DNA from: Gracilaria domingensis
Taxonomy: Eukaryota > Rhodophyta > Florideophyceae > Gracilariales > Gracilariaceae
Direction of reading: 5' to 3'
DNA length: 64,000 nucleotides
Assembly (NCBI GenBank): GCA_022539475.1
Contig: VCMS01000024.1
Location: 248,001 to 312,000 of the forward strand
In this document: in pieces, positions 47,194-58,823 of the stretch
Position numbering within the stretch: the first letter of the stretch is position 1
Layout: each line of letters opens with the position of its first letter
Made by a program: the position numbers and the translations under genes
The notes under the pieces: model-generated
Told to the model about the DNA's origin: nothing
Seen by the model: the letters and a program-made list of their open reading frames with translations, nothing else
The model's database searches: none

Positions 47194-50158
47194 TCATATC
47201 CCTGCTTCACGAAGGGCACCTTCCGACGCGACGTCCCACGGCTTCACACATCCGTGACTAGCGGACGCTATACGCGAGCCGTCCGCACACATCGCAACAA
47301 AAGTGGGCGCCTCCTGATGGCAGCGGTCAAGCATGACGTGCAGCTCAACATTCCACACTTTCATTTCACGATCGGTACACGAAACAGCGCGCGTGCCGTC
47401 CGCGCACACCGCCACGCACGTCACCTCAGTCTCGTGGCCGGGCAGCTGGTCTCGTTCCCAAGCACTACGCGCGCCCGGCAGCTGACACGCGCAAATCGTC
47501 CCACCCTTGCCACCAGATATGAGTCCCCGCCCGTCCTCGCGGAACGAAACGCAGCGAACCTCATCCCTGCGCATTTGCCATGGCAGCATCTCTGGCTGCA
47601 GCTCCGCTGTCTCGCCGTCCCACAGCTCAATTTTGCCATTCTGCAACCCTGTCGCAATTCTCCTTCCGTCCACACTTACGGCCACGCACGATATCCTCGA
47701 GTCACCCCCACCCTCGGGATGGGAGTTAATTTCCGACTTCCTGCTCTTCATATCCCACACAACTACTTTTCCGTGTGCACACCCACAGAACCCTACTGAG
47801 CCGTCTTCACTTCCACCCACATACGAAATTTCTGTGTCCTCAATACCCACTGTCGTTACGGCATCCCCTCTTTCATATTCCCAAAACCCGAACTCTCCTT
47901 CTGTCGTGCCCCACAAAATCTGTTTCCTTCCGTCGGCGAAAGCTGTACTTGTCACCCGGCTTCCAACCTTGACATGGTACGGTACAAGCATCTACCGCTG
48001 TCCCAGTTCCAAATGAGAATATCTCCAACAATGTTTCCAGACACAACCATTTCCTCGTTCTCGTTGAATGCCAAACAAGTTACAAAACATTGTTTCACCG
48101 ATTTCACACAGATCGCTTTCCTGTCTTCTGTATCCCATGTCCATACAAAATAAATCACCTTTCTCCCACAAGAGCTCACAGCAACACATCCAATCTCTCA
48201 GGGATCCTTGGTCTCCACTTACGAGTTCTAGCGGAGCGTCATCGTCGAGTGTGTCCCACAATAAAACCTCTGCATTTTGTTCATTTGTGTCGTTGGACGC
48301 TCGTCCTAGCCCACATGCGATCCACCTCGAGTCTTTGCTCACGGAAATGCATGTAACCCACGTCAAACCCTGTCCTACGACAGACTCCATACCACTAGCA
48401 GCGTCCCACTTTGTCACATGACGATTGGCGTCCACGCATGCAACTAGTTGACCGTTGCTTGACATTGCAGCTTGCTGAAACTCTCCCACGATATCAACAG
48501 TGCTTCCACTGCCGTTGTTCAGGTTGTACTTCGCTATCTGCACTTCCTCCTTGTAAGCTAAACAGAGGATGATCAATTCGTTCTTATTCTTTCGAATACA
48601 TTTCACTTTCGCGCCCATTTCAATACTCTCGACAATAGCACCGCCTGAACCTGTCAAGAATCCTGGCAGTGCCTTTGCCCATGGTCCCGCCGCATTTTCC
48701 GCAATCGATTCTATCTCCTTGAGAAACGCTCGAGTCGTCTCGCATTTCTCCGAATACTCTATCAAGCGCCCATACAGCTGGTAATACCTCACGTTTCGCC
48801 CCCATTATTCTTTTTCATTGTTCTTTTTTTTTTTGCGTAATATACCTCACTTTCCGCAGCATTGACTCAATGCATGCTTTCAACAGCAGGCCTCCCTTCT
48901 TAAGACGCTTTATTATCCCACTGAGGCGTCAACAAAAGCCAAACCAATTCATCATCTTCTCCAGCTTCGTGCAGTAGTCGACACTGGTTCCCATCCAAAT
49001 ACCCATCTTTATCTTCGACTCTCCACCATTCCCTTCTTCTGCATTTCCTTGTGCAGTGCACCACTGGGGCGTCCTCGACAATATCTTTGTCACGCTTGTT
49101 TGATTTGCAGCAAAACAGTTTTTTCAGATTCAAGCAAATGCTGCTTTTTTCGTTCACTACATTACCAGCATTCGAAGTTCTCGGTTTGGATCAGCGTAAG
49201 CTTGAGTATCTTCACCATGGAAATAGCGGTTTAACATTTGCTTGATGTAATCTCCCTTTTTATCCTTTGAATCGTATCGAAGCACATCCAAGATATCGTC
49301 ATGTACGCGCAGCATCGAATCTAGTATCCCCCTGTCCTCTAGAATAGTCATTTCAACGACAGCCAAGTCATTCAGAACCTTCAAAACTTTGATAACTCTG
49401 TTTGCATTCAGATCCCAGAGTCGCTCCAGCATAGACACAGGCAGCTCTTGTTGCTTCTCCAGTATGCAAAGTTGTCGATGCATCTCCGGAACCAGGATTG
49501 GAAACGCTTCCAAGTCTCTGTTTCGCTGGCAACAAACCTTTAGGATAGACATCGAAGAGTCCATAACTTTTCTTATAGGACCATATCCTTCTGCGTCCTG
49601 TGTAACTAGTATGTCCGGTGTGAGTTTCAGTTCTTCATGATACAAACTCAAGGCGTTTTCTTTCGGCCCCTTCATGAGAGCAAAATAGTGTCGAACGCCT
49701 GCACCAGTGACAGCAAGCCGCAGAGGTATTCCGTCACAGACACCAATTATCTCCTCCATTGCTTCCTTATTCTTTCTCTTTAAAATCGTTGAGATATCCA
49801 ATTCAGCGTGTCGCAAGAACATTTCCCGCGAATAGTTCTCCCCACGACGCTCAAAGGTTTTGCGTTGGTCAGCCTCCCGAGCAAGAACATTGTCTCTCGT
49901 CGTGAACACAAGCCTGCTGCCGTCATTGAGCATGTCGGCCAAAATGCGGAACGTTTCAAAGTTAAACCCGTTTTCCTTCCACACATCGTCAAGTAGAAAC
50001 AGACTTTTGTGAGGTAGAAACCAATCTTTTGCCTTATCGACAGCCACCTGCAGTTGCTTACATCTACGGATTTCGCCTCCAAGCTTCCCATTTCCTGTTC
50101 TTTCAACAATCCGAGCAATCTCCTGGATAGCCACAGCAGTCGAGAGTGGAGTGCTCAT
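47194..50158 (-). pseudogene. Decayed NB-ARC-WD40 (NLR/STAND-like) gene
   Basis: Reading 5' to 3' on the minus strand, the first part (50158-49166) is an NB-ARC ATPase remnant: KSLFLLDDVW (Walker B), GSRLVFTTRD and CDGIPLRLAVTG (GLPL-like). The P-loop is absent, and only about 270 bases separate this gene from its upstream neighbour. A linker follows (EWWRVEDKDGYLDGNQCRLL). WD40 repeats follow, with IWNWDSG, VWDMKSRKSE, IELWDGETAE and MKVWNVELH among their WD-type blade ends. GT-AG introns could explain two breaks: 49165-49095 (71 nt) and 48845-48788 (58 nt). Two others, near 48180 and between about 47990 and 48000, are plain frameshifts inside WD repeats. Intact STAND proteins of this layout act as ligand-triggered, oligomerising switches in immunity or cell death. 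This copy is 5'-truncated and probably non-functional. Confidence 0.75.
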
Positions 50159-50426
50159 AGTTGCTGTATGAGCTGCTGTGCTTTGCCTTTCCACGCATTA
50201 TTCCTTGTTTTTGAAGTGCTCGTTTTGCCTTTCACGGTATATATCCTTGCGCTTTTTCTATCTCAGAACGAGCGCCTGGGAGCAAGCGTCAGAGCAAGCG
50301 CACACCATCGCCGCAAGCGCCAAGTGATGGAACAGCTTCCGTAATCCTTCATCCCATGGCGGTTCTGATAACCGTCCAATACCCTGGTTCCTTGGTAAAA
50401 GAATGACCTCTTAAACACCATTCGTT

Positions 50427-52121
50427 TCAATCTATCTCGATAACCTCCGTTGCGTTGAGCCGCCTACGTTTAACACTTTCATCAACAGATTTACCTTCTG
50501 AACTACCAAACAAACGTTCAACCTCCCGTAGCTCCTGTTGGTCCCGTTTGTACTGCTCCAATTTCTCTTTGCGAACATAGTCCACCTTAGTGATGATCAC
50601 GTATGCGTCATAGTTACCACCAAGTACCCCGGCACTTGCACAATGCCTCTCGCTGCTATTAAACGTGCCCCAGAAATGTTTTCTAGCAAAATTCGAAGCA
50701 TGTCTATGATCATTGAACGCTTTGTACTTCATAGAGGGCGCACTACTGCGGAGAAAAGCGGTCACCTCCGGATGCCGAGGCACAAAAGCGTGTGGTTGCA
50801 CATTCGTCCCCACCGGCTCTGGATATCGCAACTGTCTGGCACGAGCAGCAGCCACCGACACCACATGAGCATCGCCAGCCTTTTCTCGCACTTGCGGAGC
50901 TCGCAGTGTCTCTCGCAGAAGTTGCGCGCAGTTTGTGCGAATTATCGCCTGAGCGAGTTCTTCGAGCAGCTCTTCATCCCGCGGGTCAGCGCCGAGCAGC
51001 GCCCCGAACACATTTCCAGCATGGGATGCTGATTGTGTAGCATCGACCGTTGTAAATGCCCCGGCGATGTACTTTCGAGCGAGCTCCGCAATTTCAGCTG
51101 GAACTCCGTGCTTAGCATCGTCTTTAGCGAAGCAATTGAGGATGCTCACAATGCACGCCGCAAGACCCGCAGGCGATAACTCAGTGCACTTGGAGACAAA
51201 ACGTGCTCGGTACGGGACGCAGGAGGACAGGCTGAACAGCATTCTTCCCACGTTTGCTACCGCACCTTCGTAGACGGGACCAGTATCCCATATGTCCATG
51301 ACTGCAGTGGCAATGCTATCAGCAGAAGCGAGCACGTTTTGCAACTCGGAAACTCTTACCGCGAGAACTGCAGCATGTGCGACCATTTTGTTCGGCGTCT
51401 TACGCACGAGATTTAGGATCAGTGGTCCAAACTCTTTCCAGCCAAACAAGTTCACTACGGAGACAAACGCGTTCACATGCTTTGGTGACATACAGCCACC
51501 ACGAGCGACATTTGAACCCGAGTCCATAAGAGCCATGAGAGAACGGGCGGCGTCTTTGTGTTTGATTCTGCACGATACGTGCAGCAGATTAGCCAAGGAG
51601 GTGTACGCCTCAGTAAGAGAATTTGTGGCATACTCTACTGCTTGCAAAAGTGTTTCTGCCGTATCAGCTGCATCAGAGTTTGCACGACGGAGCACGAGTC
51701 GCACGCCATCTTGGAAACTTTCCTCACATGCTAGGGCGAATGCCTTGCTGCGAGGCAAAATAAACAGAAACGCACAATGACAGAAATACTCCAGGGTTGG
51801 TCCCGCGTTCCTAGTGCAGCCTTCGAAATCTTCTCGATCTGGATCAAGCCCGTCAAAAAATTCTTCTCCGTCTTCGTCATCGAAATCTAGGACAGACATC
51901 TCAACTTGCACATCATCTTCATCAATAACCTTCTTGGTGGTAATAGATGATTCGATAATGTCTTGCATTGAGTAGCCAGCTCCATTTTCTTCGTCGTCAT
52001 CGTCGTAATAACCGCGGCGACGACGACTGTAGTGATCAGGGGCGTTAGCAGTGCCATAGTCGTGTTTCTCGACAAGCGCCAAGAATAGATCAAACTTTTC
52101 TGATTGACGTAATATCGATAC
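50427..52121 (-). pseudogene. 3' half of a large 2OG-Fe(II) oxygenase gene, cut off by the hAT insertion
   Basis: One uninterrupted frame of about 560 codons continuing the oxygenase whose 5' half lies at 57352-58228. The visible part starts at the target duplication (VSILRQSEKFDLFLALVEKHD). It has an Asp/Gly/Tyr-rich linker (GYYDDDDEENGAGYS, DFDDEDGEEFFDGLD), then EGCTRNAGPTLEYFCHCAF and a long helical region with several LL-rich segments. It ends RRRLNATEVIEID. In my recollection, large algal and fungal proteins join an N-terminal prolyl-hydroxylase-like domain to exactly this kind of C-terminal region; the region itself has no assigned function. No ATG exists at its 5' end, so it cannot be translated alone from its own start. 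It lies 268 bases upstream of the NB-ARC-WD40 pseudogene, on the same strand. Confidence 0.75.
52114..52121 (+). repeat. Target-site duplication ATCGATAC, left copy
   Basis: Eight bases immediately outside the left inverted repeat, identical to 57352-57359. Eight-base duplications are the hallmark of hAT integration. Confidence 0.92.
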
Positions 52122-52140
52122 TAGAGTTCTAACCGGACAG
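52122..52140 (+). repeat. hAT left terminal inverted repeat
   Basis: Nineteen bases, perfectly complementary to 57333-57351; similarity ends at the next base inward. Confidence 0.93.
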
Positions 52141-52866
52141 ATACGGCGTCGTCCGAAAACCACAATATTTTAAATTCTGCTTGCGCTGGCAAAGCACGTA
52201 GTGCCAGCCCAGTGCCGCTTGAACTGTTTGAAAACCACAATCTGAGCCTTCTTGCTCTTGAAATGATTGGTAAGAAATGTCTCAGTGCAAGAGCAAACTG
52301 GCTACACGACTACTTCCACAATAATGAGAAACACTGCGTATCTGCATCCGGCTGAAAGAGAAAGCTTCATTCCTTCAGCTGTTTGATTCCATCTGTTTCC
52401 AATTCAGAAAACAGATCGTTCCAGTTTGTTCCATCTCTTCTTGTTCTCAAATTAAAACTATTCGAACGTTTAAAACATTACAAGACCCGAATATGTCCGA
52501 AAAACCAAGCCTATTGCCGGTTTCTAGCCGCATAACAAAACCGTCCAACAACAATATTGTTTGCGTTTTTACGACTATAAAGACTCCGCTTTTGCCAATC
52601 AAATGCAAAACAGCAGCAGCTAAAGTGTTCTAAAAGATCTGTGAAGGTCATGCTACCGACTTTGAATTACAAAGCTGGGAGATACTAAACAAGTTTGACG
52701 CATGCGATCTGAGCACTAGAGAAACTTCCATGTTTTGTGTTATAATAACAGCCGTAAGAACGCGGGATGGCTTGTTTGTTCGTATGTTCTTTCTAGTGGT
52801 TGCTTTTATCTTTCAGTGGTTTAGAAGTTTGACACACAGTTAGAAATCTTCGTATTGAAGAATCAT

Positions 52867-54653
52867 ATGAAAATACATAAGTCTTCTCGTAATGCAAATG
52901 TGACAAATCTAACAAAAGCGTCATCTACAGTTAAGAGAAAAGTTATTGATGCAACGGCTTTTGCACTAGCTTTTAGAATACTTTCTTTAAGCTTTTCTTA
53001 CGAAAAGAAGGGAATGCTGCAGTTCGCACAAGTTCTGGTGAATGCTGGCCGTTCGGTTCCATGCAACATAGAAGTCGATGTAGGAGACCTACTCCCTTGT
53101 GATAGAGCAGTCAGAGCAGGTGTGTCTAGAATTGCGAAGAGCGAGAGAGAAAAGTTCCGAAATATAGAGCTTTCAAATGTAATGGCATCTGGAGGTGGCG
53201 TAACATATGATGGTATGAAAAACAAAGTAACTACGAAGAACTTGTATGACATGACCGTGCAGTACGTTAAGTTGGTGGAGCCGCATGTGCTTACTCGAGA
53301 ACGATCATTTGAGCTTCTTTCCAAAACGTTGTTATGTATTTAGGTTAAAAGATCAAAGACAGCTGATGCTATTCGGGATGCTCTTGACCCTGCAGTGATG
53401 GAAAATACAATTTTGAACTCAGTTTGTTCATGAAAAACATGACATTCGTAACCGACCTTGCCGCTACTAAGCCCTTTATCGTTGGAGCCTCATCATCCAG
53501 CCGTCGAGTACCATAAACGGAAAAATGGATGGGCCGCATTTCTCACCAGCTCAATACGGCAATGGAGAAATGTGTAGAGATAGTGACCACCCGCAGGAGT
53601 GCAATAGCTTCTGATTTGACGAAAGTGAAAACCATAGTGCGCATGTACAAGCAAGGTAGTTGGAACTCGTTAATGAGGAAGGGATTTCATTTGTTGCAAG
53701 AAGTAGAAACGAGGTTTGGAACTACAATTACTGTGGTTGAAAGGTTTTTGAAGTCTGTAAAAGAAGTGAGTTACATAATCAATTCAAAGAATTCGACGCA
53801 AGCCCGAGAGGCGTTTGATTCTTTATTGACGGTTAAACCTGAAAAAGATTATATACACTATCCCGCTCTGAAAGCGATAACTGCTGCATTCGCTCCGGTC
53901 TGTCATATACAAACTGCTCTTGAAAGCTCGAAAACGACAACGATTCATATGATTTTACCAATGTTAACCAAATGCAAGCAACAACTTGGTCAGCTTCGTA
54001 ATGGTCTCCCGATAAGGCCTCAAATTGGTACCCCGCACAAATAAACGCCGGAGTTCTGCGGTGAACTGATTTTGCATTTAGAACGGATCGAAACGCATGA
54101 TCTGTGGGTAGCAGGGTGCATTATTCACCCATTATTGCGTCCTCTTACGTTTATAAAGGATGTTGTAGAGCGCAATCGATTTCTAGAGAAATGATGTGTT
54201 CTTCTCCGCCGTTTGCTTCATCAAATGTGCCCGGAAACAACAGCTACGAACGAAGAAGTAGAGGAACGTGGTTTGAGAAAATCAACGGCTAGGAAAGAAC
54301 TAGGAGCGTCTTCATTTTGTCTGGACGAAATGTTTGACTCGGAGGAATTCGAAAACGTCGAAACTGATGTGCTCATAAAGTACCTTGAAAGAAAGCTCAC
54401 CGCAAAGATGTTATCACTGTTACGTGATGATTCCAAAGGGAATGGCATAATCAAGTTTTGGATTATCATGCAGTCTAGTCTTCCAGACTTGTCTACTGTT
54501 GCTTTGCGGATTTGGGCTACTCCTGTGTCTTCGGCTGAAACTGAACGCAACTTTAGCACTGTTAATCGTACTTTGTCTGCGGAAAGATCACTGCTGCGTG
54601 CTGATATTGTAGAAGACCTTCTCTACGTTAATACGATTGTTAAGGGCTGGTAG
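52867..54653 (+). pseudogene. Broken hAT transposase
   Basis: Three consecutive frames that together resemble a hAT transposase. Piece 1 (52867-53343) contains VSRIAKSEREKFRNIEL and GGGVTYDGMKNKVTTKN, the region leading into the RNase-H-like core. Between 53430 and 53520 the core continues as FVTDLAATKPFIVGA, then a stop. Piece 2 (about 53523-54044) holds GRISHQLNTAMEKC (the CxxH/LN block), LQEVETRFGTT and a helical region. Piece 3 (54213-54653) holds the hAT dimerisation domain: FWIIMQSSLPDLSTVALRIW, PVSSAETERNFSTVNRTLS and SLLRADIVEDLLYV. At least two stops or frame changes separate the pieces, so it cannot make a full protein. Confidence 0.88.
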
Positions 54654-54659
54654 ATACTA

Positions 54660-55163
54660 CACAACAAGTGTTAATAAATGAGCTTGAGAGCACTTGAGAG
54701 AATGTTTGTACTACGGTCAGTTCTTGGCGAATGGTTTGTTCCAGTTAAATGGTTTCGTCTTCATGCAAGCCACCCAGTTGTCACACCTTTGTGTAAGTTT
54801 TGCAGGTAGACAGGACAAAGAAGGAGTAGTTTATTCATTAATGCATTGGTTCTCGTTCTAAGTCCGTTTTCGAAGTAGAATACGTCCAGAGAGAGATGGA
54901 TCAGTGGTTTTCTTTCTCTGGTCGTTTGGGAGAAATCAAACTAACTTTTGATTGAGTAGGTGCGGTTTAGACCTCAATATGTTTTGGTTGTAGCAGAGAG
55001 GAAGGAAAGGAAGAGAAGCTTAGCCACGGCGGTTGTAAAGTTTATAAAATAGGAATACAACTACTTGGAAAGACTAGAATGAAAATACAAGAAGAGGGAG
55101 GAAAGAAGAGAACGCCACCCATTCGCTCCCAACCAGGAGGTAGCCACGGTAGCCACAAACTCT
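54660..55163. other. Unassigned DNA inside the hAT element
   Basis: About 500 bases of moderately AT-rich sequence between the transposase remnant and the captured segment; no feature recognised. Confidence 0.4.
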
Positions 55164-55202
55164 CCTGCGTATATCTGTGCGTAAAGTAGAACCTCGAACT
55201 TC
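55164..55202 (+). repeat. 39-bp direct repeat, left copy, flanking the bHLH fragment
   Basis: Begins CCTGCGTATATCTGTGCG; matches 55565-55603 with two mismatches. The pair brackets the GC-rich bHLH segment. Confidence 0.9.
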
Positions 55203-55566
55203 CTGGGTTGCGTGTCCGTTGCGCCGTCCAATCCGCCGCCGTCCACCCTGCCGTCTGCCTTTACTGCCGCAAAACGGCTCGGGCCCGTGACTTCGCTCGC
55301 GCCCTCTACCCCGTCGAAGCGCCGCAAGCCGCGGGCGTCCACGCGCGCCGCGTTGTCCGCGTCGCTGTCCGTCATGCCGGAGGATGAGACCGAGCCATCT
55401 GATGCGTCGCTGCCGCGGCACAGGTCGCAGCCGTACCTCTCCGCCGCCACCCCCAATCCTCTCGTCAAGGATACGCACAACTCGCACACGCGCAAGTGTC
55501 GCGGCCAGCTCCACTCCAAGTTTCAGGAGCTGCTTAGCATTTTACCGCCGCTCCCGTCAAACAACC
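55203..55566 (+). pseudogene. Captured fragment of a bHLH transcription factor gene
   Basis: GC-rich, host-like segment inside the AT-richer element. Its plus-strand frame encodes a Ser/Pro-rich disordered region (TPSKRRKPRASTRAALSAS) followed by NSHTRKCRGQLHSKFQELL and SILPPLPS. This matches the basic region and first helix of a bHLH domain: His-Asn and Arg-Lys-x-Arg positions, then the KFQELL helix and LP loop. It stops before the loop and second helix, so the domain is incomplete. It has no start codon of its own and is bracketed by a 39-bp direct repeat. The likeliest reading is a host gene piece copied into the transposon. Confidence 0.65.
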
Positions 55567-55603
55567 TGCGTATATCTGTGCGCAAAGTAGAACCTCAAAC
55601 TTC
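55565..55603 (+). repeat. 39-bp direct repeat, right copy
   Basis: Partner of 55164-55202 (two mismatches). The last bHLH codons lie directly before it. Confidence 0.9.
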
Positions 55604-57332
55604 GCACAGCCAGCCACTCGTAATCGACGTCAAATGCTGATTCCGTCAGATTCATATCTTGCGAAGGAGCCTCATATAAAACATCATATCCACCTGCAAG
55701 TTCATTAACCTCATATTCATAACGTTAGTCTGCAGATGGGTATCCGTCCAATTGCTGATTCGTAGTCAAAGCGTCTTGCGTGCGTTATCGTTCGTGAACC
55801 AACCTGAGAACCATCTTCCGACAACACTGGGGAGCCTGCTTCAGTTCCAGCGTTCGCTGTACATGACTTTTTAGAGCTCTTGCCCCTCTTGTTGTGCCAG
55901 CTCCGCGTGGACGGTCCATTGGAGTCACTGCACAGCGGACGGGCTTTCGTGGGGACGTCTGTTTGCCGTGATGGATCATCGGCGGCAGAAGGCTACGATG
56001 ACCACGCCCATCACGCAGACACGCCCAAGCGCGTAGTCAACAGCCCCAAATAGACATCAATCAACGCAGGTGGAGGGCAGTGAGAGCAGCTTTGGTTACG
56101 CAGCAAATAGATAGATAGCGAGGGAAGTAGAAGTCGCCATCTACAGGATTAATGGATTTAGCTTGAAACGAATAGGTCTCAGCAGAACTCGTGCTGAGAG
56201 CAGACAAAAACCTGCAGCGGGGCGCTGCGCTTCACTCAGAACGCGGAGCCGTTGGGCACAAAGTCACAGCGATACCACCTGAACAACCACCAGAGTAAGA
56301 CGACCCGTTCTACTACAAAAAGTGCAGATGAGCACTTTGTATACGCGCGAGTCGACCTGCTGCCGGGCTTTCCTGGAGAGCATAGAAAACAAATCGATGC
56401 GACGATTGGCACTAAACATGTCGTGTTCAATCCGGTTCAACGACAGCTTAGAGCAGTTTACAAGCTAGCCCACAAGCGACTCAGACGCCCGAATGCAGCA
56501 ACCAGTGGCATTTGTGCCCAAGACGACGGCATACTTCATGAGCGCGTCGTAGGAAGCTGAAAAATAAGGCGGTGTTAACGCAGTCGACGTTTAGCAGCTA
56601 GACGCTCTAGAAAACGTACTCTGCAAACTGCTGGGCTTTCGTAAAGACGAGGCAGTCGACGCCGTCGTCCAGAACATGACGTTTTGTCTGTACTTTTGTG
56701 CAAAATATGAATTATCTAGCGCGGCCGAGATGCAGTCTCGCAACTTGGCGCACGCTTTCCGCGCGGCGCAAGGCGGTACGACACTTTTGAAATGTTTTAA
56801 AAGCGTTAGATTTTGCCCAATGTGGCAAAACGGGCTTTGGTCTTGAGAATAAGGTGGGCGCGCCCACCCGACGCCCAGTCTCACCTTGCCCTCCCGGCCT
56901 AGCCAACTAGGCCACACCAACTAGACGAAGTTCCTCGACACTTGTGGGTGAAAACATTGTCCTATTTAGATGAACCGAAGTTGTCCGGTTCACGTTGGCG
57001 ATGTGTACGTATCCGAATGTATTTGGTCTAATAATGAGAAATTGATTTTGATTGCATTTGTTTGGTAGAAATGTTTTTGAATATTGTTTTTTTCCGGCAA
57101 ATGAAAGCATTTCCGGCCCTTTCTTTGAATTGTTTTGAAGAAGGAGTAAGCTAATGATAGTTTTGCTTAATTCTGTCTGTGGTAAAGATGTAGAAATCTA
57201 TCATTTTGATTGTATTTGCGATGATGAGGCAAAATTGGTTTTGAAACTGTTTTCAATATTTTGTTGGCAAGTTCTATTCTATACAAAGTTGCAACAAAGA
57301 CCTGTTTGCTTCGGCAGAGGCACGGAACTTGT
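55604..57332. other. Unassigned right part of the hAT element
   Basis: About 1.7 kb. Short frames at 56252-56560 (plus) and 56591-56920 (minus) show no recognised domain. Two palindromes stand out: GGTGGGCGCGCCCACC at 56852-56867 and GGCCTAG-CCAA-CTAGGCC at 56896-56913. The last 250 bases are AT-rich up to the inverted repeat. Confidence 0.4.
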
Positions 57333-57351
57333 CTGTCCGGTTAGAACTCTA
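57333..57351 (-). repeat. hAT right terminal inverted repeat
   Basis: Exact complement of 52122-52140. Confidence 0.93.
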
Positions 57352-57359
57352 ATCGATAC
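57352..57359 (+). repeat. Target-site duplication ATCGATAC, right copy
   Basis: Identical to 52114-52121, immediately outside the right inverted repeat. Confidence 0.92.
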
Positions 57360-58228
57360 TCGCGCAGCATCATGTCCTTTAAGTCTTTGAAACGAAAAGT
57401 TCTTTTCTCTGTATTTGTGCTCCAACATATAGGTGAATTATCCGGCTCATCATTCTGGCTCCACTCTCTTGCAATGCGAAGGAGTTTCTCCAGGGCAGCA
57501 TGGTGGCGAACAAACTCTATGCCTGGCGAACGACCGTCGCATAGTATAAGATTGTACAGAAGCACCAGGCAAATGCCTCCTTTAACCTCGGTCAACTCGT
57601 GTTCGCAGTCCGCAAAAAATGCGGTGGCAAAGAGGTAAACAACACTTCCTTTGGCATGGTCAAACACTTTGCGCTCGTTGCGATGGGAAACAATCAATGC
57701 AGAGGATAAGAAGGCTGCGGGAAGCTGTACCACAACCGTAGCAAACATTCCCGGCGACTTTTCGGTGTCTTTGTGCGGCTTAAAAAAGTCACCAGGTTGA
57801 TACAGAACCAGTTTGGAAAGCTCTGCAGACACGACTCCGCTGGCTACTCCAAGATCAGACGACATGCGTTGCGCGAGTTGTTGAACGACAGTGTTCCATG
57901 CTTGACCAAGGGAAAAAGACGGCGGAGAGATCTCGCCACTTGAGCGAATGGAGGTATCCACGACGGTGTCGGCACCACGACCAAACGGTGACTGCACCGA
58001 TACGGCTAGCAAAGCGTCGGCCTGTGACTGCGACAGGGATAGCGATATATCGCCCACATTTGCGACGTTGAGGGCTGGAAGAGGAAGTGTGTGTGCAGGG
58101 CCACCGACGGCGAAGGATTTTGTTGCGGTTACCTTGTCCAGAGCATTGTATAGGCTTTTACAAAATGATTGCGAAGACACGCTTGCCTCGTGGGACGATT
58201 CATGCGACGTACCCTCGATATCTCATTG
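57352..58228 (-). pseudogene. 5' half of a large 2OG-Fe(II) oxygenase gene (prolyl-4-hydroxylase-like domain)
   Basis: Minus-strand frame open from a TGA near 58225, without an ATG, so a first exon is probably upstream. It encodes SFCKSLYNALDKV, SPFGRGADTVVDTSIRSS and LVLYQPGDFFKPHKDTEK, where the HKD supplies two iron ligands. GMFATVVVQLPAAF, FADCEHELTEV (distal His) and GGICLVLLYNL follow. The expected 2OG-binding Arg after the distal His is not seen; Ile-Cys occupies that place. After FRFKDLK a one-base deletion shifts the frame: restoring one G would read GHDAARVSILR straight into the 3' half at 52121, across the 8-bp duplication. The hAT element therefore sits inside this gene. Function before disruption is unknown. 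Confidence 0.78.
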
Positions 58229-58823
58229 ACGTTGTAAGTTGGCGATTGTGACGTGGTCTGCACGTGTATTGCACGTGAACGAACGCTTGATCTGTGTTTC
58301 CGCAGCTCATGGCCCAACAGTGTTGGCGCATAGCACTTTGCGCTGGTCTACGCCTCGCGTGTTTCCAAAAAAGCGCGGGAAGCATACCCTCTGCGAAAAT
58401 CGAAAGGGTCTAGAATTTGTTTTGTCAAACAGGACCAAGCTTGACATGGATCGGGGCGAGCTTGACATCACAAGAAAATGGCCTAGGGAGATTCTACACA
58501 GTTTGAGGCAAGTGCCACAACGCCGGCGAATCCTCGCCCGCTACGTGGGTGATTCTCGTCAGCTATTTCCGTAACGATCGGCCCAATAGCGCTTCGAAAA
58601 GTAAAAAATCCTTACAAACTAAGCACACTATTGATCGGATCGTTCGGGAAACAGACACCGCCTGGGCTCCGCCGGCCCGCCTATACGACATAAGCTCATC
58701 ACGTCAGCGTAAGTCAGACGTTGGAAGCGCTTGGAAGCGCTTAGTATCTCAATTCAAAACGCGTAGCGCGCCATTCTCATTTTGGCGTTAAGATGTTGAT
58801 GTCCTGCTCCCAACGCGACCACT
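58229..58823. other. Spacer, no gene recognised
   Basis: About 600 bases that may hold the first exon and promoter of the disrupted oxygenase, but I could not identify either. Confidence 0.4.

Follow-up and report, generated by a model that had tools for sequence, protein, structure and literature searches.

A cut-and-paste transposon of the hAT type broke a host gene of Gracilaria domingensis within the window, by which we mean the whole 64,000-nucleotide stretch of DNA that was analysed. It is one of a group of elements that have related transposases and similar terminal repeats and bear, right of the transposase, host-gene fragments that vary between members (seen in 9 of the 11 members examined). 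We consider it highly probable that an insertion splitting the gene, a cargo-bearing group of hAT elements, movement in trans and capture by template switching together account for what is seen. The features concerned are the following.

50427..52121, minus strand: split host gene, downstream half, an open frame of 564 codons
52114..52121, no strand: left copy of the 8-bp target site duplication, ATCGATAC, one copy in the paralog
52122..57351, plus strand: whole hAT element, 5,230 bp, bounded by terminal inverted repeats
52122..52141, plus strand: left terminal inverted repeat, 20 bp
52592..54644, plus strand: decayed hAT transposase (tblastn match to the 753-aa frame found in related elements)
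54420..54632, plus strand: hAT C-terminal dimerisation domain (PF05699, E 2e-13)
55077..55208, minus strand: WW-domain gene piece, two sub-pieces, like C14:189256-189484
55209..55563, plus strand: bHLH/GAF-like gene piece, 88% to C76:142774-143128, inside the WW piece
55565..56070, minus strand: further part of the WW-domain gene piece, with 85% and 73% identity to C14
56160..56241, minus strand: Nsp1-type nucleoporin gene-like piece, 82 bp, 80% to C111
56244..56586 (56244-56310 and 56377-56586), minus strand: DUF547-gene piece, compared with C12:202225-202512
56846..56940, no strand: dispersed repeat of about 95 bp with 8 other matched places
57332..57351, minus strand: right terminal inverted repeat, 20/20 complementary
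57352..57359, no strand: right copy of the 8-bp target site duplication, ATCGATAC, one copy in the paralog
57360..58222, minus strand: split host gene, upstream half, with a weak match to 2OG-FeII_Oxy_3

The element inserted once into the host gene, duplicating an 8-bp target and splitting the gene in two. Much of this had been recognized in the initial annotation: the halves of one minus-strand gene are open frames where it placed them, ATCGATAC does stand at both 52114-52121 and 57352-57359, and inspection by eye confirms the joined peptide that it gave, in the reading frame of the downstream half. The inverted repeats, described as perfect over 19 bp, are perfect but match at 20 of 20 positions, one base more than claimed. 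On a uniform-base estimate, about 3e-4 perfect 20-bp inverted pairs no more than 6 kb apart are expected by chance in 64 kb, and about 5e-9, likewise for uniform bases, once a matching 8-bp flank is added. The assignment to hAT is borne out by the 8-bp duplication, the short inverted ends and the PF05699 domain (2e-13; 50.4 bits against a cut-off of 21.4). The gene has a close relative on C298. Alignment of the two halves to relatives from the same genome had been proposed as a check, and the C298 paralog spans the junction uninterrupted, with a single copy of ATCGATAC. When the flanks are joined with one ATCGATAC, 2,247 of 2,552 positions are identical to C298, and none of the 16 gap positions in the alignment falls at the junction. 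The C298 paralog is a paralogous empty site for the window insertion and gives a clean view of its effect on one gene. The single base reported as missing from the rejoined gene does correspond to a one-base frame difference from this nearest paralog, but it lies about 80 bp off the insertion, the junction itself being gapless.

That the gene was split is supported by the uninterrupted paralog, but its designation as a 2OG-Fe(II) oxygenase gene rests on a domain that scores under threshold: PF13640 (2OG-FeII_Oxy_3) reaches 15.1 bits in the split gene and 26.4 bits in a paralog on C95, below the Pfam cut-off of 27. Since, in addition, a PDB sequence search with the split gene returned no match, we use only the tentative label 2OG-oxygenase-like. 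The PDB matches of the upstream half are attributable to chance (E 0.88 or worse). Longer open frames of the family are found on C95, C5 and C397, the C5 frame being without a Pfam match. When window positions 50000-52121 and 57360-58800 were compared with C298, homology began about 140 bp beyond the downstream gene end, and the upstream half aligned at the DNA level only after its initial 152 bases; the C298 relative is therefore taken as a gene duplicate and not the other allele. Synonymous divergence between the two is 0.28 and 0.27, and dN/dS values of 0.27 (downstream half) and 0.35 (upstream half) point to constraint on both the split gene and the C298 copy during most of their divergence. 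The C298 paralog (C298:29292-33983) has its own stops and two one-base gaps. Because its downstream half also holds a stop, both close copies of the gene appear to be broken, by different lesions. Adjoining the split gene there is a frame with an NB-ARC domain (window 49160-50197, minus strand, E 2e-9), followed by a frame at 47995-48804 (minus strand) with a weak WD40 match under the cut-off; the two are perhaps one NB-ARC/WD40 gene.

Much of the right half of the element is copied host-gene sequence, which had escaped the initial annotation: blastn reveals a patchwork whose pieces match four host genes. The host loci on C14, C12 and C111 have domains above the Pfam cut-off (WW, DUF547 and Nsp1_C, respectively), and the locus on C76 has HLH and GAF matches just under it. 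The DUF547 piece shows 81% and 67% DNA identity and 44% amino acid identity to C12:202225-202512. The first 39 bp of the WW piece at 55565..56070 repeat positions 55164-55202, and thus about 39 bp of the WW gene are repeated on either side of the bHLH-like piece. At two of the WW joints the overlap is 3 and 2 bases. Microhomology is nevertheless not general at the capture joints, because no base is shared at the WW-to-bHLH joint and an additional one is present at the return joint. The joints and the placement of the bHLH-like piece inside the WW piece fit template switching without proving it. Most likely, the fragments were acquired by template-switching DNA synthesis while a gap in the element was being repaired, with synthesis passing from one host gene to another and then back. 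Regarding the remaining sequence, an 82-aa frame at 56595-56840 has no match in the genome but itself. Seven of the 8 other copies of the 95-bp repeat were aligned and show long invariant stretches; one copy sits in a hAT element on C361. Neither ARAGORN nor Rfam gave a hit when 52000-57500 was scanned, so the repeat does not correspond to a recognised RNA.

The window transposase spans residues 66-752 of the 753-aa sister frame (tblastn), with amino acid identities of 47% and 44% over two long stretches and 35% over a short one, and at least two frame changes. A match of the piece at 53517-54041 to NleF_casp_inhib was rejected as chance (E 0.087; 13.3 bits, cut-off 24.1). This transposase might have worked when it arrived: an autonomous hAT element may have landed intact and decayed in place, its right half being the product of nested later insertions and drift. 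Such a course of events would explain why the transposase is still recognisable along most of its length and how the right half came to hold a dispersed 95-bp repeat. Yet there are 8 in-frame stops in 679 transposase codons and none in 851 codons of the host gene, a disparity with P 0.003 for equal decay time (P 0.015 with the downstream half alone), on the premises that stops are neutral events and that the host gene, which also has one frame change, lost its function at insertion. Moreover, the right half matches host genes, and sister elements bear other genes beside their transposases. Decay in place is accordingly improbable. The excess of stops suggests instead that the element was probably dead on arrival, in which case this copy, without a working transposase on landing, would have been mobilised in trans by the transposase of a relative. 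Similarity by itself is directionless, and one could also suppose that it was the loci on C76, C14, C12 and C111 that acquired transposon pieces. This direction is very unlikely given the longer open frames at the host loci, three of which have domains above the Pfam cut-off and the fourth HLH and GAF matches just under it, and the partial, rearranged versions in the element. An assembly artefact fusing unrelated contig ends, for which we found no supporting point, can be dismissed almost entirely in view of the perfect terminal repeats, the target duplication at both ends and the uninterrupted paralog with its single target copy.

The exact 19-mer end occurs at only two sites in the 77.9-Mb genome, both belonging to this element (reversed control pattern, 0). 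With up to 3 mismatches, the 19-base end occurs at 17 places compared with 7 for the reversed control, and 7 of the 17 near-matches read TAGAGTT[T/G]TAACCGGACGG, which means that relatives of the window element exist. A genome search for a second full-length copy of the window element, which gives lower bounds, found none. The C-terminal transposase piece has 21 matches, the window included, and we examined the cargo in 11 of them (the window, C1, C59, C241, C165, C36, C340, C85, C37, C41 and C4). Nine have a recognisable host fragment, representing five cargo types; the C41 and C4 frames have no recognisable cargo. Both ends were mapped in only some of the 11 members. Paired 8-bp duplications are present in the window, C1, C59, C241, C165 and C41, with carriers of TAF2 and of TPR cargo among them; they were not found for C36, C29 and C70, nor in the examined stretches of C340, C4, C37, C85 and C22, where an end is missing or was not found. 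Members without paired ends have their cargo assigned from neighbourhood or homology instead of from two ends. C1 and C37 resemble each other at the transposase end (75%) and over the right-hand 560 bp (81%), with different sequence in between. Beyond the terminal repeat the right end of the window element has little in common with the C1 family except one 44-bp stretch.

The hAT family of C1 and C59 has been recently active. The two copies are 99.7% identical over 5,734 aligned positions, and each has its own 8-bp duplication. Both the element at C1:158498-164229 and the C59 copy have open transposase frames and paired target duplications. The 753-aa transposase frame is open in C1, C59 and C241, so that gene-carrying hAT elements are seen here still holding transposase sequence. 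Residues 685-752 of this sister frame match Hermes, a hAT transposase of known structure (PDB 6dww, 2bw3; E 5e-11), with no sequence match outside these residues. Hermes is not known to carry host cargo. The target preference nTnnnnAn described for Hermes (PMC10368747) is followed by the window site and by 5 of the 6 paired sites overall, the exception being C241.

Host relatives were located for the sister cargoes. The TAF2-like cargo is related at 90% amino acid identity to a 1487-aa frame on C228, which matches TFIID subunit 2 in the PDB; the TAF2 piece of C241 is broken, and the joint of the TAF2 deletion in the C1 element shows an overlap of 8 positions with mismatches. For the TPR cargo the relative is at C1:642472 (91%), for the alanyl-tRNA synthetase cargo on C13 (85%) and for the heat-shock factor domain on C12 (72%). 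The hAT copies at C165:80317-86042 and on C36 are 97.6% identical and have the same antisense TPR fragment. Of the 8 kinds of captured piece observed in the group, 6 run in the orientation opposite to that of the transposase. Both sets of carriers, C1/C59/C241 and C165/C36, are multicopy.

A transposase-bearing hAT with variable genic cargo is an architecture already known from grapevine, in the form of Hatvine-6 (PMC2528002). As described there, transposase sequence and terminal repeats are common to the copies and the remainder is variable, often with host-gene matches. Our case differs from that description in the located host relatives of the cargo, the empty site and two cargoes that seemingly diverged before capture. 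Pack-TYPE elements, Pack-hAT among them, likewise have hAT ends, 8-bp duplications and host coding fragments between the terminal repeats, but they are described as non-autonomous and without transposase, whereas here transposase sequence and cargo occur together (PMC8903248). In the published Pack-TYPE pipeline a transposase match is enough for an element to be labelled 'autonomous', and elements such as ours would be filed there (PMC8903248). In animals, 208 of 370 Pack-TIRs derive from hAT, and microhomology and template switching have been proposed, as they might apply here; those elements are mostly single-copy and ascribed to a transposition-free process, in contrast to our multicopy carriers (PMC8277862). 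Maize Ds elements are also hAT elements with genic filler DNA, but non-autonomous, and the paper on them describes gene capture as rare among hAT elements (PMC3260210). Neither the present hAT members nor the question of their donors is covered by any report that we found in the open-licence literature, at the level of titles and abstracts and of passages in the papers cited.

Having both the cargo and its host relative at hand offers a way to time the capture and to probe transposon transfer between lineages. If a host gene is copied and the copy then drifts as fast as its parent, the copy-parent dN/dS is expected to be about 0.5 or more. We applied this reasoning to the TPR, TAF2, alanyl-tRNA synthetase and bHLH-like cargoes. 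The TPR cargo has a dN/dS to its host relative of 0.08 (C165) and 0.06 (C36) at dS 0.45-0.49, and the TAF2 cargo one of 0.18 at dS 0.27; both reject post-capture drift with P below 1e-10 in an approximate Poisson test with rates taken as equal. For the alanyl-tRNA synthetase (0.45) and bHLH-like (0.39) cargoes, capture from the host's own gene is unrejected (P 0.21 and 0.10). Because the TPR and TAF2 differences lie mostly at synonymous sites, the divergence of these two cargoes probably predates their capture. Between the two TPR copies there are 13 nonsynonymous and 6 synonymous changes, a ratio in agreement with neutrality (P 0.42) and at odds with a ratio of 0.07 (P 3e-6, with site shares rounded), and the TPR cargo does not look constrained any longer. 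With a low dN/dS to the host gene but a near-neutral ratio between the copies, the constraint acted before capture: the TPR cargo built up its distance from the host gene while still part of a functional gene.

A search of the genome found no closer host relative of the TPR cargo than the one at 91%, and the cargo donor was likely another lineage or a paralog that is lost or unassembled. It is conceivable, if rather doubtful, that certain members of this hAT group acquired their fragments in a different species or lineage before reaching this genome, in which case the cargo would label the transposon's origin. A lost or unassembled paralog in the same genome would leave an identical pattern. 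As for the material that was copied, some stretches within the TAF2 piece correspond to sequence as far as about 670 bp ahead of its parent's open frame, which favours genomic DNA over transcripts as the source of that cargo.
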